The position numbers were made by a program, and so were the translations under genes. The notes under the pieces are model-generated. The model did not search any database. It had not been told where the DNA came from and was given only the letters and a program-made list of their open reading frames with translations. This document shows, in pieces, positions 4,826-39,980 of a stretch of DNA of 41,730 nt (position 1 is the first letter of the stretch; each line of letters opens with the position of its first letter). Source of the DNA: a virus; IMG/VR virus record IMGVR_UViG_3300036791_001556, positions 1-41,730 of that record; one strand, 5' to 3'.

Positions 4826-5178
4826 CAGCGAGCTACCTCCTCGATCCACGGCCAGTCCGATGGCCGCACCACCGCGCCCAGAAAGCCAGGGATGGCGTCG
4901 AACCCAGCGATCCACTCGCGCTGCGGGCGCTTGACGTCGCCGTGCTGGCTCTTGCATTCGAGCGCGAGCCCGCGATCGCGCCGCAACGCGATGATGTCTG
5001 GAAACCCCGACGGTGAGCGCGTGCTGTCATACGCGTGATAGATCAGCGTCCAGCCGCGCAGTTTGAGGTATTCGAGCACGCGCTGCATGAACGATCGTTC
5101 GGGCTCGTCGCCGATCTCGTCCTTGCCGCGGCGCCGACGCGTCGCGGGATAGGCCAGGCCGTGACTGACCAGGCTCAC
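4825..5178 (-). CDS. VRR-NUC domain nuclease
   Basis: 117 residues with the compact PD-(D/E)XK pattern of VRR-NUC proteins: ERSFMQRVLEYLKLRGWTLI, then GFPDIIALRRDRGLALECKS, then RPQREWI. Asp61, Glu74 and Lys76 form the likely metal and catalytic triad, and Gln86 is the conserved downstream residue. Stand-alone phage VRR-NUC proteins act on branched or flapped DNA in replication and recombination. The GTG start overlaps the HNH stop (GTGA). The setting between HNH and Bet genes fits DNA processing. Confidence 0.85.
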   Translation of the reverse strand: MSLVSHGLAYPATRRRRGKDEIGDEPERSFMQRVLEYLKLRGWTLIYHAYDSTRSPSGFPDIIALRRDRGLALECKSQHGDVKRPQREWIAGFDAIPGFLGAVVRPSDWPWIEEVAR

Positions 5179-5630
5179 TCGTCCTCCGGGTGATCGTCCC
5201 GCAAGCGCGCTTGGGCTCTCTTCGCCCGCGCTTGGGCGTTGTTGCAGACTCGACAGAACCGATAGCCGTTGTACTTGATAGACAGTGGATGGCCCCGTAT
5301 GCAGAGCGTCTGCGCAGCCTGTTTCGCCACGATCGATTCACCACGCAAGACGTTGACGCGGTGGGTGACAGGTTGCAGGTGCTGGGGCCTCACGCAGGCG
5401 GGATTGCGGCACAAATGGTCGAGCTCTAGACCAACTGGCACTTTGCCGTTGACACTCTCCCAAACCACGCGATGCGCCGAACGGTGTCGCTTCATTCGAC
5501 GGTCCCAGGGGTGCCCGTAGTTGAGACGCGTTCTGGAGCCTGTCCATTCCCAACAACCGTTAGCCGTTACCAGAATCTTGCTCGCGAGAACTTGTGGCAG
5601 ACGCAGGTCTGTCAGCATGATCTCAATCAC
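5175..5630 (-). CDS. HNH endonuclease with C-terminal zinc ribbon
   Basis: 151 residues, or 147 if translation starts at the ATG at 5618. The HNH core is GLELDHLCRNPACVRPQHLQ, with Asp71-His72, Asn76 and His84 in the expected positions. A second Cys/His cluster (CIRGHPL, then FCRVC) near the C terminus looks like a zinc ribbon often appended to phage HNH proteins. Unlike the other three HNH genes here it runs with the surrounding operon and is coupled at both ends, so it may be a resident gene rather than a recent homing insertion. Confidence 0.85.
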   Translation of the reverse strand: MIEIMLTDLRLPQVLASKILVTANGCWEWTGSRTRLNYGHPWDRRMKRHRSAHRVVWESVNGKVPVGLELDHLCRNPACVRPQHLQPVTHRVNVLRGESIVAKQAAQTLCIRGHPLSIKYNGYRFCRVCNNAQARAKRAQARLRDDHPEDE

Positions 5631-10748: not shown

Positions 10749-11312
10749 TCAGATCCTCCCCACCACGATCATTCCGTTCCAACTACCCCAAGTGGCTGCC
10801 TCATCCGCACTGAGTTCCTGACCAACTCCTTTCCAACTGGGAGCTGGGTTGGCCAAGTAGATGACCCCTGGTCCCAATGTCCGGCAACCGACATGGTGGT
10901 AAAAGCGTGCCCCGTTGATCTGCAGCGGGTAGGCGCCGGCCCACGCCAGGATGTCCGACTGGCTCAGGTATTGCTTGCGCTGTACGGCGTAGCCCAGGCT
11001 GTTGAACATGGTCTCGAGGTCGTACATGTCCGCCCTGGCCAGCCCATACGCGGGATCGACCGCGCCGTAGTAGGTTGCCGCGCGCAGGGTGTCGACCACG
11101 TCGAACTCGTTCCACGCTCGCCCCAGCCGATCGTCACCCACGGCATTCAGCAGCCACGCAGAGCTCGCGCACGAGCACGTCCAGTCCGCAGTCTGGATGA
11201 CGGCCGGCTCCGACGGGGCATACACAAACCCTTCGACTGGCGGCTGGGGATCAGGCGGGTAGGGTTCTTGGGGCGTCGGCACCCACACCGGCGTCCACCA
11301 GGCCACGGTCAT
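10749..11312 (-). CDS. Cysteine-peptidase-like endolysin candidate
   Basis: 187 residues. After a Pro-rich N terminus comes QTADWTCSCASSAWLLNAVG, with Cys46 or Cys48 before a helix as in papain-like or C39-type peptidases, and GARFYHHVGCRTLGPG, with His139/His140 followed by a turn and IYLANPAP as the likely His and Asn/Asp region. LARADMYDLETMFNSLGYAV matches the substrate-groove helix of C39-like families. It is followed by three small membrane proteins, so it is the best candidate for the phage endolysin. There is no signal peptide. A virion-associated protease is the alternative. Confidence 0.5.
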   Translation of the reverse strand: MTVAWWTPVWVPTPQEPYPPDPQPPVEGFVYAPSEPAVIQTADWTCSCASSAWLLNAVGDDRLGRAWNEFDVVDTLRAATYYGAVDPAYGLARADMYDLETMFNSLGYAVQRKQYLSQSDILAWAGAYPLQINGARFYHHVGCRTLGPGVIYLANPAPSWKGVGQELSADEAATWGSWNGMIVVGRI

Positions 11313-11545
11313 AGAGGGTCGTTAGCGAGTTCGGCACCGGTTTCCGGGGACCAATCTATGCATGCTCCGGACGCGAATGCCCTTTGGACATGCCCGTTGC
11401 CCACGTCGATTTCGTCGCTGATCGGTGGCCCCAGATACTGCGGCGGATCGGCTGCCTTGAGCGCCCGCCAGTACGCGTACACCCCGTTCTCTGTACCTAC
11501 CCAATATTGCCCCCAAATAAGATGGTCGATCATCGATCCTGCCAT
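11309..11545 (-). CDS. Hypothetical protein (78 aa), intact paralogue of the disrupted gene
   Basis: Begins MAGSMIDHLIWGQYWVGTEN and continues through YWRALKAADPPQYLGPPISD. An AGGAG precedes the ATG at good spacing. The stop overlaps the start of the cysteine-peptidase-like gene (ATGA), so the two are coupled. The first 24 residues match the remnant at 12105-12036 at 17 positions, so this is one of two tandem copies. The function is unknown; Trp- and Tyr-rich short proteins between tail and lysis genes may be virion components. Confidence 0.6.
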   Translation of the reverse strand: MAGSMIDHLIWGQYWVGTENGVYAYWRALKAADPPQYLGPPISDEIDVGNGHVQRAFASGACIDWSPETGAELANDPL

Positions 11546-11564
11546 GCTGCTCTCCTAAAATGCA

Positions 11565-11620
11565 TGGCCGGCGCGCAGTGCAATCTGCCGCCGGCCAGAC
11601 ACCACAGGAGTCCACCTGCG
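11565..11620 (+). promoter_or_regulatory. Structured leader of the HNH gene
   Basis: A 9-bp perfect stem TGGCCGGCG / CGCCGGCCA (11565-11573 and 11589-11597) with a 15-nt loop, a 3-nt gap, then ACCACAGGAG and a start ATG at 11621. The same geometry and the same ACCACAGGAG-N3-ACCTGCG ribosome-binding segment precede the HNH gene at 29154. Confidence 0.6.
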
Positions 11621-12040
11621 ATGCCCTTCGACTTTACGTGTCCGCGCTGCGGAACCGACTTCGTCGCGAATCGAAAGAATCGCCACTTCTGTTCGCGGGC
11701 CTGTCAGTGGCAAACACCTGAGATCAGGTTCTGGAATAGCGTCGATACTTCCGGCGAATGCTGGATCTGGACCAGAGGTCATGACCACTTCGGCTACGGC
11801 ACATTCTTCGTTGAAAATGTTCACGTAACGAGCCATCGCTACGCCTATGCATCGCGGTATGGGCCGATTCCGCCCGGCAAGCACGTTTTGCACAAGTGCG
11901 ACAACCCACCCTGCGTACGTCCCGATCATCTGTTCCTTGGCGACCAGCAATCCAACATGGCAGACATGCTCTCTAAGGGCCGAGCAAGCCCTCCGCCGCA
12001 CGAGCGTGGTCCACGAGGTCCACACAAACCGCGGGCGTAG
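11621..12040 (+). CDS. HNH homing-type endonuclease
   Basis: 139 residues on the strand opposite to its neighbours. An N-terminal zinc ribbon (FTCPRCGTDF, then HFCSRACQW) is followed by the HNH_3 core VLHKCDNPPCVRPDHLFLGD and an Arg/Pro-rich tail. The domain nicks or cuts DNA and usually spreads its own gene into unoccupied sites. The stop codon lies in the flanking gene remnant, as if the insertion borrowed it. It resembles the HNH at 29154 in core, zinc-ribbon layout and leader, so the two are probably related mobile genes. Confidence 0.88.
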   Translation: MPFDFTCPRCGTDFVANRKNRHFCSRACQWQTPEIRFWNSVDTSGECWIWTRGHDHFGYGTFFVENVHVTSHRYAYASRYGPIPPGKHVLHKCDNPPCVRPDHLFLGDQQSNMADMLSKGRASPPPHERGPRGPHKPRA

Positions 12041-12105
12041 GTGCCGTTTTCCGAGCCTGCCCAGAACTGTCCCCACACGAGGTGGTCTATCTGCGAGCCG
12101 CTCAT
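12036..12105 (-). pseudogene. Remnant of a paralogue cut by the HNH insertion
   Basis: An ATG overlapping the upstream stop (ATGA) opens a frame reading MSGSQIDHLVWGQFWAGSEN GTYA, which matches the start of the 11309-11545 protein at 17 of 24 residues. The similarity ends exactly where the HNH gene's 3' end begins. The frame then continues antisense through the HNH gene and stops at 11926, with no paralogue-like sequence. The missing C-terminal part is not found between the HNH gene and 11545. Confidence 0.7.
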
Positions 12106-20684: not shown

Positions 20685-21368
20685 ATGGAAGACGAGCAGT
20701 GGCGTGCGGTCGTCGGCTGGGAAGATGTGTACGAAGTTTCTGATCTGGGTCGCGTCCGTCGGGTCGCGCCGTATCCGACGTGGCAGGGCAAGAGCACGCG
20801 TATCAGCCACACGGGCCGGCCACTCGGAGAGCCGTCGATGCGTGTCCTGACGGCCATGCTCAAAGATGGACGGCCAACGGTGAGTCTGTCGCGGGGCGCT
20901 GGGACAATCCGCTGGTACTCGGTTCACACGCTGGTTGCCGAGGCCTTCTTGGGTATGAGGCCCACGGCGGCGCATACGGTCAACCACATAAACGGAGATC
21001 CGACCGACAACCGTGCCAGCAATCTCGAATGGCTGACCATGCGTGGCCAGCACGCGCACGCGCTTGAGAACGGGCTTCGCAATGCAGCCAGCTTTCGCAG
21101 TCTCAGCGACGAGCAGGCGCTTGAGATCTGGGAGCACCCCGAGATCAGCGGCCGCGAGTTCGCGCGGCGCTTTGACGTCAGTCCTGTGACGGTCTCGGGT
21201 ATTCGGCGTGGTCTTAGTTACCGCTGGGTGACGGGTGCCGCTCGAGCAGTTGAGGTGCGTATCTGGAATCAGTGTTCGCCTGAGTGCGGCTGCGATTGTC
21301 ACTACCGGGCGATTCCTTCCAGAGACGGGGTTCGCGGTCCCGGTGCCTTGCCTAAAGACATGGGCTAA
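20685..21368 (+). CDS. NUMOD4/HNH homing endonuclease
   Basis: 227 residues against the direction of the flanking head genes. The N-terminal WRAVVGWEDVYEVSDLGRVR is a NUMOD4 motif. The HNH core is VNHINGDPTDNRASNLEWLT (about 99-118). A helix-turn-helix, SDEQALEIWEHPEISGREFA then RRFDVSPVTVSGIRRG, follows, as in intron- or intergenic-type homing nucleases. The C-terminal CSPECGCDCH may bind zinc. It sits between capsid and scaffold genes, a common landing place. Its leader lacks the hairpin of the other two plus-strand HNH genes, so it is a separate lineage. Confidence 0.9.
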   Translation: MEDEQWRAVVGWEDVYEVSDLGRVRRVAPYPTWQGKSTRISHTGRPLGEPSMRVLTAMLKDGRPTVSLSRGAGTIRWYSVHTLVAEAFLGMRPTAAHTVNHINGDPTDNRASNLEWLTMRGQHAHALENGLRNAASFRSLSDEQALEIWEHPEISGREFARRFDVSPVTVSGIRRGLSYRWVTGAARAVEVRIWNQCSPECGCDCHYRAIPSRDGVRGPGALPKDMG

Positions 21369-29083: not shown

Positions 29084-29097
29084 AATCCTTCCTACCG

Positions 29098-29153
29098 AGA
29101 CTCCCGCACCGCGTTACCGGCCGGGAGTCTGGCACCACAGGAGGTGACCTGCG
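29098..29153 (+). promoter_or_regulatory. Structured leader of the second HNH gene
   Basis: A perfect 9-bp stem AGACTCCCG / CGGGAGTCT (29098-29106 and 29122-29130), a 15-nt loop, a 3-nt gap, then ACCACAGGAG-GTG-ACCTGCG and the ATG at 29154. The layout equals that at 11565-11620 while the stem sequence is unrelated. Confidence 0.6.
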
Positions 29154-29738
29154 ATGCGGGATGAGTCTACGGGCCAGTTCGTTGGAGGGCCAAGGGTGCG
29201 GTGTACCTGCGCCTGGTGTGGCACCTCGTTCGAGAGGCCGGTTCATGAAGGAACTGGCAACCGCTATTGTTCGACGGAGCATTACCACCTCGCGCGCGGT
29301 CATGCTCCCGTCGAAGAGCGGTTTTGGTGCCGCGTCATTCAGCGGCGGAATGGATGCTGGTCGTGGACCGGTGAGCGTGCTAAGTATGGCTACGGTATCT
29401 TGAAACGGAACGATGGGAAGCGAGTGCTGGCGCATCGCCTTTCCTGGGAGTTGCACTACGGTCCAATTCCCGCCGGCTTGAAGGTGTTGCATGGCTGCGA
29501 CAACCCGCCGTGCACCAACCCTGCTCATCTGCGACTTGGTACACAGGGAGACAATGTGGCCGACATGATGCGCAGAGGCCGGAAGAACGGTCCCGGCCAC
29601 GTCATCGCTCGAACGTACCTCTCGGTCATCTGGTGGCTGCTAAACCAACCGGAAGTTGCCTGCCGAAGACCCTGCTGCGTACTTGGGGAGGCTGGACTGG
29701 AACATTTTGTTGATGTCGCCGGGGGCCCATCCCATTGA
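29154..29738 (+). CDS. HNH homing-type endonuclease
   Basis: 194 residues on the strand opposite to the virion genes. An N-terminal zinc ribbon (RCTCAWCGTSFERP, YCSTEHYH), then FWCRVIQRRNGCWSWTGERA and the HNH core VLHGCDNPPCTNPAHLRLGT. It aligns with the HNH at 11621 (GPIP-x-G, VLH-x-CDNPPC, MADM / VADM). Similarity ends near RGRKNGPG (about 29600). The frame then runs 99 bp antisense into the 3' end of the neighbouring gene, so the last 40 residues are probably acquired by insertion and not functional. Confidence 0.87.
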   Translation: MRDESTGQFVGGPRVRCTCAWCGTSFERPVHEGTGNRYCSTEHYHLARGHAPVEERFWCRVIQRRNGCWSWTGERAKYGYGILKRNDGKRVLAHRLSWELHYGPIPAGLKVLHGCDNPPCTNPAHLRLGTQGDNVADMMRRGRKNGPGHVIARTYLSVIWWLLNQPEVACRRPCCVLGEAGLEHFVDVAGGPSH

Positions 29739-37801: not shown

Positions 37802-38506
37802 CTAGCGCAGGGGCAGGCCGCAGGCGGTGTAGCCGGACGTCCAGCCGTTCGTGAAGGACTGCTGGCGCTGGAGACCGGTGCCGTGCGAGTTCGGGTCGCT
37901 GGCCGGCACGCTGGGCGCGTCGCCGAGGTTGAAGAACTCGGCCTGCAGGTCCTGCAGGTTGACGTCCTTGCTGTTGCCGCCGGTGCTGTCCCAGCGCATG
38001 AAGGCGCCCGCCAGACAATCGGCCTGCAGTTCCTGCTGCTGGGTGGTCGCGTTGTGCACGCCCACCAGGTTCTGGACGTGGTGTCCCTCCTCGTGCGCCA
38101 TCGCCGCGGTGACGCCTTCCCAGCCGTAGTTGGCGTTGATGACGCCGGCCAGGAAGCCGTAGTCGAAATACATCGCTTTGCCAGGGAAGCAGTAGAACGC
38201 GGCTTCCTGCATCGACTGCTGTGCCTCCAGATTGCCGCATGCGGTGGTCGTGCCGCCGGCCTCGTTGAGCCAGGACACACCCGGCGAGGTGTACGTCCGC
38301 GGTACGGTGGCGTGCGCGAAGTTCCAGCCCCAGAACGTGTCCAGATTGGCGTGTGCGTCCTGCAGGGCGGCGTCGTAGTTGGTGACGTACGTAACGGTGG
38401 GGCTGTAGTAGGCGTCAGCGGTGAGTGGCGTGACGACGAGGGCCGCGAGCGCGGCGAAGCCGACGGCGGCCGCGGTCGCACGAATGGCGTAGAGTGGCGG
38501 ATGCAT
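37802..38506 (-). CDS. Secreted neutral zinc metallopeptidase
   Basis: 234 residues. An N-terminal signal sequence (AIRATAAAVGFAALAALVVT) is followed by a domain of the YpfJ / putative neutral zinc metallopeptidase type: FYCFPGKAMYFDYGFLAGVI, then AMAHEEGHHVQNLVG with the HExxH zinc site (His138, Glu139, His142), and QQQELQADCLAGAF with Glu159 as the likely third ligand. Cys90, Cys106, Cys164 and Cys229 may form disulfides after export. AGGAG precedes the ATG. Followed by a strong terminator, it looks like an independently transcribed cargo gene. The substrate is unknown; cell-surface or cell-wall protein is possible. Confidence 0.85.
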   Translation of the reverse strand: MHPPLYAIRATAAAVGFAALAALVVTPLTADAYYSPTVTYVTNYDAALQDAHANLDTFWGWNFAHATVPRTYTSPGVSWLNEAGGTTTACGNLEAQQSMQEAAFYCFPGKAMYFDYGFLAGVINANYGWEGVTAAMAHEEGHHVQNLVGVHNATTQQQELQADCLAGAFMRWDSTGGNSKDVNLQDLQAEFFNLGDAPSVPASDPNSHGTGLQRQQSFTNGWTSGYTACGLPLR

Positions 38507-38538
38507 GGGTCATCTCCTAGACAGATGGCTTGTGTCGC

Positions 38539-38577
38539 GCCCCCCGGCCGGTGGCAACCGGCGCGGGGGGCAACTTT
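38539..38577. terminator. GC-rich hairpin with T-run between transcription units
   Basis: GCCCCCC (38539-38545) pairs with GGGGGGC (38565-38571) and CCGGT with ACCGG inside; TTTT follows on the plus strand. It lies between the small membrane gene ending at 38587 and the metallopeptidase start at 38506, about 20 bp before the metallopeptidase ribosome-binding site. It is most likely a terminator isolating the two units, or a stem in the metallopeptidase leader. Confidence 0.6.
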
Positions 38578-39881: not shown

Positions 39882-39938
39882 GAGTGACCGGGGCTTGTGA
39901 CCGGTCCGCCGCATTAGCCCCGGTGGTCCGGGTCACTC
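39882..39938 (-). promoter_or_regulatory. Long bulged hairpin in a 5' leader
   Basis: Left strand GAGTGACCGGGGCT (39882-39895, plus strand) pairs with AGCCCCGG (39916-39923) and GGTCACTC (39931-39938), with a 7-nt bulge. It lies between AT-rich repeat copy 2 and the ribosome-binding site of the 39641-39859 gene, so it would form in its leader. It could also act as a terminator after the 39985-40194 gene. Confidence 0.6.
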
Positions 39939-39941
39939 TGC

Positions 39942-39980
39942 GTATCCAAAATCGTCATCTTGAAAATTGTTTTTTCCGGA
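39942..39980 (-). repeat. AT-rich repeat copy 2
   Basis: On the minus strand it reads TCCGGAAAAAACAATTTTCA followed by AGATGACGATTTTGGATAC. It begins right after the TAA of the 39985-40194 gene and precedes the long hairpin and the 39859 start. It differs from copy 1 largely at positions that would be third bases of the GKNNF peptide. Confidence 0.85.

Follow-up and report, generated by a model that had tools for sequence, protein, structure and literature searches.

What is maintained by selection in front of two HNH genes whose leaders share their geometry but not the sequence of their stems? The window, by which we mean the whole stretch of DNA analysed, is a virus record of 41,730 bases whose large late genes lie almost exclusively on the minus strand. 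Open reading frame and domain searches located gene A (139 aa; 11,621–12,040, plus strand) and gene B (194 aa; 29,154–29,738, plus strand; antisense to the flanking late genes), both with an HNH_3 domain above the curated cutoff (E 7.9e-12 and 3.8e-14, respectively). By domain the two genes would encode HNH_3 homing endonucleases, for which empty sites exist and whose homing activity is putative. At site A, the stem TGGCCGGCG (11,565–11,573), a 15-nt loop and the opposite arm CGCCGGCCA (11,589–11,597) are followed by GAC and then by ACCACAGGAG-TCC-ACCTGCG-ATG with the ATG at 11,621; at site B, the stem AGACTCCCG (29,098–29,106), a 15-nt loop and CGGGAGTCT (29,122–29,130) are followed by GGC and ACCACAGGAG-GTG-ACCTGCG-ATG with the ATG at 29,154. 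The preliminary description of this DNA, which had reported identical geometry with different stems, was exact to the base, including the match of 20 of 23 bases in the segment with the Shine-Dalgarno (SD) sequence and the start codon. The sequence CACCACAGGAGNNNACCTGCGATG occurs exactly twice in the window, compared with 0.01 times expected from shuffles, and the two other HNH_3 genes of the window, at 5,178–5,630 (minus strand) and at 20,685–21,365 (plus strand; this one also carries NUMOD4), have no leader.

Folding z-scores were −4.8 (copy A) and −2.1 (copy B) for the gene strand, and −5.0 and −3.7 for the opposite strand. Within the apparent 15-nt loop of both leaders lies a further, bulged stem of 3–4 bp with a loop of 6 nt, and the apparent ribosome-binding segment is a 9-bp hairpin when read on the opposite strand. 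The predicted antisense RNAs of A and B have the identical dot-bracket structure (((((((((......)))))))))...((((((((((((......)))).)))))))). In copy A, HP1 (11,565–11,597, minus strand; HP1' in the antisense RNA) consists of a GC-rich stem, a one-nt bulge, an inner 4-bp stem and a 6-nt loop, and is the proposed terminator hairpin of the antisense RNA, while HP2 (11,600–11,623, minus strand) is the antisense 9-bp hairpin CATCGCAGG/CCTGTGGTG, which covers the SD of gene A (AGGAG at 11,606–11,610, plus strand) together with its start codon. Sequence and folding place HP1 of copy B at 29,098–29,130 and its HP2, likewise a 9-bp antisense hairpin over the SD and the ATG, at 29,133–29,156 (both minus strand).

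Similar hairpins are present upstream of relatives of genes A and B. When 60 SD-bearing HNH genes were folded in an unselected test, the region from −66 to −18 gave z < −2 in 20 of them, compared with 1 and 6 in two control regions. As the preliminary description had suggested checking, many relatives have the same geometry, and a covariance model, R1, could be built on 16 leaders. Copies A (11,566–11,623; 51.3 bits) and B (53.9 bits) belong to its training set; copy C, a third leader in the window (38,504–38,571, minus strand), does not, and was matched at 36.0 bits (E 1.7e-5). Copy C precedes a gene for a neutral zinc metallopeptidase (Zn_peptidase; 37,802–38,506, minus strand; PF04228, E 1.5e-11), and its antisense RNA would read on the plus strand. 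R1 also finds leaders elsewhere before a ClpP-like gene and an HNH/AP2-like gene, both assigned by eye. Furthermore, a gene-blind DNA pattern constrained only by an outer stem and by TGRCAC matched 91 stretches in IMG/VR, compared with 2 for the reversed (mirrored) control pattern; among 77 distinct matches, the start codon is at the expected place in 73 and an SD is present in 68, counts that, like all leader counts here, treat related leaders as separate and hence overstate significance. With the peptidase gene behind copy C and the many gene types that the gene-blind pattern yields, a leader specific to HNH genes was rejected, and the preliminary description, which had considered HNH genes alone, was incomplete in this point.

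Many phages carry two to four copies. In cellular genomes, whose phyla were taken from the titles of the centre genomes, R1 matched 32 of 396 Actinomycetota genomes (25 of 296 in a first sample) and none of 200 Pseudomonadota genomes; the host phyla of the IMG/VR contigs were deduced from the chromosomal matches and from a single group of isolated phages. Among isolated phages, only the Propionibacterium phages Anatole, E1 and B3 showed direct DNA similarity, and weak mycobacteriophage matches (E 0.9) were treated as chance. The chromosomal version of the leader had no plasmid match and no phage match. Anatole has the motif directly before an HNH gene; this gene, gp2, is annotated from 772, and the leader and the open frame indicate a start near 503–505 (L310, 505–1260). 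No Rfam family reached its gathering score at any leader, nor did a relaxed search give a family at the leaders, and a known RNA family or ribozyme was rejected on this ground. Elsewhere in the window, a Type-P5 twister ribozyme (RF02684) lies at 39,888–39,942 (minus strand; 46.8 bits, gathering score 37.6).

The claim that paired changes keep the stems, and hence that an RNA structure is selected, gained support from the 70 distinct sequences of the pattern set, which were not selected for the HP1 inner stem: inner pairs 2–4 are Watson-Crick in 89, 97 and 96% of them, compared with 47, 40 and 63% expected for independent columns, and all four pair types occur. Nine of eleven HP1 pairs vary on both sides in alignment A2, which was chosen by eye and is thus not independent. 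HP2 stems of at least 4 bp are found in 69% of the leaders and in 27% of shuffles, and HP2 fits a single register between the conserved CAC and the ATG in 57 of 74 leaders. The mismatches tell the strands apart. On the gene strand, the inner pairs of HP2 comprise 265 Watson-Crick pairs, 33 A·C, no G·T and 15 others, and the HP1 inner stem has about 20 A·C versus 2 G·T; since A·C on one strand is G·U on the other, the wobble sits on the antisense strand. Consistently, the fold is more stable on the antisense strand in 89 of 95 leaders, a bias absent from shuffles, and likewise in 29 of the 33 cellular-genome leaders, all of which lie outside R1. Selection on a paired structure is clear, and the 33 G-U pairs in antisense HP2, with none on the gene strand, argue that the structured RNA is that of the opposite strand.

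These data bear on the best-surviving alternative, in which the mRNA itself forms HP1 and HP2 and thereby masks the SD, delaying synthesis of the nuclease or keeping it low. Hairpins that hide the SD are described for T4 I-TevI, segB and Aeh1 mobE, and a hairpin for Aeromonas phage 25 seg43, in the passages of PMC2988022 consulted, and all of these place RNA structure at the translation start of a homing nuclease, as here. In addition, the SD lies inside HP2 in all leaders displayed, and copy A folds strongly on the sense strand as well. However, the hairpins of T4, Aeh1 and phage 25 sit in the mRNA, and the same passages describe only mRNA hairpins for the T4 homing genes, whereas the leaders keep their pairing on the opposite strand and add a putative antisense promoter. 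A conserved pairing of the SD in the mRNA was not found, given the A·C mismatches and the lack of G·U on that strand, and HP2 is about 4 kcal/mol less stable there (−5.4 vs −9.1 kcal/mol on the antisense strand). We therefore rejected a sense-strand riboregulator as the main reading and regard it as improbable, though it deserves more weight than the other alternatives. The preliminary description had proposed translational control of the nuclease: a structured RNA very probably does control the mobile nuclease gene, but it would be made from the opposite strand and not be the leader of the HNH mRNA.

The first codons carry a second signal, which a fold in the mRNA would leave unexplained. Coding positions +4, +11, +15, +16 and +18 are conserved despite unrelated proteins, and on the antisense strand they spell G(N)TANNNT, six bases and G, which can be read as an extended −10 box followed by the nucleotide at which transcription would start. 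An antisense TANNNT occupies exactly +16 to +11 in 69 of 95 leaders, or in 77 if a shift of one base is allowed, compared with a mean of 0.17 per position further downstream; 68 of the 69 have C at +4 (the antisense start G) and 56 have C at +18 (the G of the extended box). HNH genes without a leader have TANNNT at +10 to +12 in only 3 of 98 cases, and leaders from cellular genomes have an antisense box at +8 to +12 in 21 of 33. The idea that the first codons are conserved as protein sequence was dropped, the conserved bases having proved to be those of the antisense −10 box. A clear TANNNT is present in only about 75–80% of the phage leaders, and no conserved −35 element of the antisense promoter was found in the leaders. 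From the sequence and the position statistics, the antisense −10 box is TAAAGT in codons 4–6 of gene A (11,631–11,636, minus strand) and TAGACT in codons 4–6 of gene B (29,164–29,169, minus strand), with predicted antisense starts opposite 11,624 and 29,157, respectively; the box of copy C is TAGAGT. The distribution, the conserved structure, the strand preference and the promoter-like box at a fixed place are directly supported.

At the other end of the leader, the 9 nt before HP1 contain 4.0 A versus 1.6 in the background, which corresponds to U residues after HP1' on the antisense strand, and the tail past HP1' has at least 3 U in a row in 37 of 97 leaders. Where the preliminary description had seen a terminator shielding the nuclease gene from antisense transcription, the roles seem reversed, for the GC hairpin resembles a terminator that belongs to the antisense RNA. 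In copy B the U-rich tail is missing, and the antisense transcript of this copy may therefore run on into the next late gene. On the sense strand, 46 of 97 leaders carry a TANAAT at −28 to −10 as counted from HP1, most commonly at −19, which would place the start of the mRNA close to the 3' end predicted for the antisense RNA; in copy A, the possible sense −10 box is TAAAAT at 11,556–11,561 (plus strand), identified by sequence and by the position statistics of the family. A different group of HNH loci (L157, L160, L166, L172, L181 and similar) has a −10 box TATAAT or TACAAT, a GC hairpin and a T run ending at the ATG, that is, a terminator-like structure between promoter and start codon.

We propose, with a probability of roughly 0.7, that each leader encodes a small cis-antisense RNA (about 65 nt), laid out like RNA-OUT of IS10, that blocks translation. 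An extended −10 promoter (TGNTANNNT) embedded in codons 4–6 would fire towards the start codon, and transcription would start at the G opposite +4, giving an RNA with 5'-GCAU, HP2 (the complement of the SD and the start codon), a short linker and HP1', in this order. The GC-rich, bulged HP1' and the U residues would terminate the RNA after about 65 nt. The mRNA would start at the TANAAT promoter about 19 nt before HP1, so that the antisense RNA would be complementary to its entire 5' end, and the pairing would cover the SD and the start codon and keep translation low, the more so at rising copy number, as with IS10 RNA-OUT. Transcription, termination, pairing, repression and multicopy inhibition are in this proposal inferred from the layout.

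RNA-OUT blocks translation of the transposase mRNA, RNA-IN, and its effect is stronger at higher copy number (PMC5006887). In IS10/Tn10, an antisense promoter lies inside the 5' end of the mobile gene, a structured RNA of about 65–70 nt is complementary to the SD and the start codon, and this RNA ends near the start of the sense transcript (PMC5006887). The leaders likewise combine a putative antisense promoter inside the 5' coding region with a stable antisense-strand structure over the SD and the start codon. They differ in having two hairpins, with the bulged GC hairpin at the 3' end, and in their actinobacterial hosts; moreover, RNA-OUT serves one transposase, whereas the leader family changes its sequence freely and stands before many unrelated genes. 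As for descent from RNA-OUT, we found no sequence relation and no Rfam match at any leader. Full-text searches of open-licence papers, judged by title and abstract, brought up no system that combines antisense RNA with homing endonucleases, though such an absence is weak evidence.

The two HNH sites show how leaders are inserted. At site B, two relatives, L022 and L024, lack the insertion, and in them the upstream gene's stop codon abuts the start codon of the downstream gene (TAG GTTGTG / TAGGTG); the comparison defines a unit at 29,084–29,639 that is missing from these empty sites. In the relative L001 (610–1244), the insertion site is identical to that of the window and the leaders are near-identical, with 96.6% of the leader shared and about 76–81% of the flanking gene DNA, and the HNH genes are different, with only about 48% of the HNH coding DNA shared. 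The empty sites, together with the identities of leader, flanks and coding part, show that the leader and the HNH gene arrived as a unit that brought a new SD for the downstream gene, and the HNH coding part looks as if it had been exchanged just past the start codon. The leader of site B is inside the inserted unit, with about 15 bp left to the start codon of the next gene, so the suggestion that it forms the boundary of the homing element is borne out only in part. At site A, a small late gene that is single and intact in six relatives has been severed by the insertion (11,310–12,103, minus strand). Its orphan 5' end (MSGSQIDHLVWGQFWAGSENGTYA) remains at 12,032–12,103 (minus strand), and directly past leader A stands a complete copy (11,310–11,545, minus strand), whose substitute 5' end has diverged and comes with an SD of its own; the DNA identity between the two 5' ends is 63%. 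In fungal mitochondria, mobile ORFs in atp6 of Allomyces and Glomus likewise form homing-nuclease units that bring a diverged copy of the interrupted end of the target gene; these supply the C-terminal end, whereas insertion A, in a phage, supplies a 5' end with a new SD (PMC3630166).

Since a late gene with its own SD begins just past HP1' at both sites, the antisense transcript could instead serve mainly to maintain expression of the next gene on the same strand after insertion, by supplying a promoter and 5' UTR, a role that the lack of a U-rich tail in copy B would also allow. Such a tail is, however, usual in the family, and the upstream neighbour is divergent in 33 leaders and co-directional in 22 (29 unclear). 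With neighbours facing both ways, we rejected the 5' UTR of a divergent gene as a general role, and this reading appears unlikely.

A cis-antisense RNA might also be made but activate, or act in trans, for instance by serving as a stable decoy or by unfolding a structure in the sense RNA. In ISPpu9, the antisense RNA Asr9, which lies over the 5' UTR of the mobile gene as the leaders do, helps translation of the transposase, and a second RNA counteracts it (PMC8450116); it differs from the leaders in being confined to one gene family and in being activating. The high stability of the stems would suit such a role. By contrast, the sense 5' UTR is here less structured than its antisense partner, and antisense RNAs over the SD and the start codon usually repress. 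Because an antisense RNA over a 5' UTR can activate, as Asr9 does, the repressive sign of regulation is our inference, and we hold activation or action in trans to be quite unlikely. An element acting purely as DNA, as a cassette boundary or a cruciform-forming recombination site, would suit the one header shared by unrelated genes, the shared leader and differing HNH coding DNA at site B and the rarity of G·U in the HP1 inner stem, but is very improbable, as it has no place for the strand bias of the wobble pairs, the fixed SD/ATG register and the promoter-like boxes on both strands.

The proposed antisense module would be portable, since unrelated mobile genes stand behind the leader. Domain searches with 63 proteins encoded downstream of pattern matches assigned HNH_3 to 29 of them, and others match HNH, HNH_2, HNH_5, AP2, GIY-YIG, MTES_1575/DUF559, PD-(D/E)XK, Endonuclease VII and phage integrase; ten proteins were checked singly, and several look secreted. 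The cellular genomes add genes for helix-turn-helix (excisionase-like), HNH_3, SWIM and SAF proteins and two Cas1-family genes. In one actinobacterial genome (L315, 1557–3059), the gene behind the leader is of the Cas1 family (PF01867, E 1.7e-32). The downstream genes are unrelated, comprising homing nucleases of several folds, integrases and secreted proteins. The SAS/ESAS of cluster K mycobacteriophages are similar in that inverted repeats stand ahead of the translation start in many unrelated genes of actinobacterial phages; they are recognised by a conserved 13-bp SAS, GGGATAGGAGCCC, beside 17-bp inverted repeats of conserved sequence (PMC3203893). In ESAS, the repeat sequence is conserved with little support for RNA pairing, whereas in the leaders the sequence changes and the pairing stays, and no antisense promoter is described for SAS/ESAS (PMC3203893). 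An identity with SAS/ESAS was rejected, as the stems vary with their pairing kept and the leaders read contain no such SAS.

The leaders probably form a single covarying RNA family that is absent from Rfam and acts as a portable antisense-RNA module. This module would pass from one mobile gene to another, unrelated one in Actinomycetota and in the phages of this phylum, and its promoter would lie within the first six codons, giving unrelated proteins the shared N-terminus M-x-x-[KDQEN]-x-T. The mobile genes of this proposed module would be those of homing nucleases of several folds, integrases, excisionase-like proteins, Cas1-family proteins and secreted proteases. Such an antisense unit before unrelated mobile genes of viruses and chromosomes of Actinomycetota appears to be undescribed; cis-antisense control of mobile genes is usually known element by element. 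The strand-biased use of G-U pairs is useful in itself for telling which strand holds an RNA. If the proposal is true, antisense RNAs become findable by covariance search, and the shared N-termini and mis-annotated starts of actinobacterial phage genes would be explained. A structural RNA family would then be a common brake on many unrelated selfish genes, keeping them tolerable to the phage.
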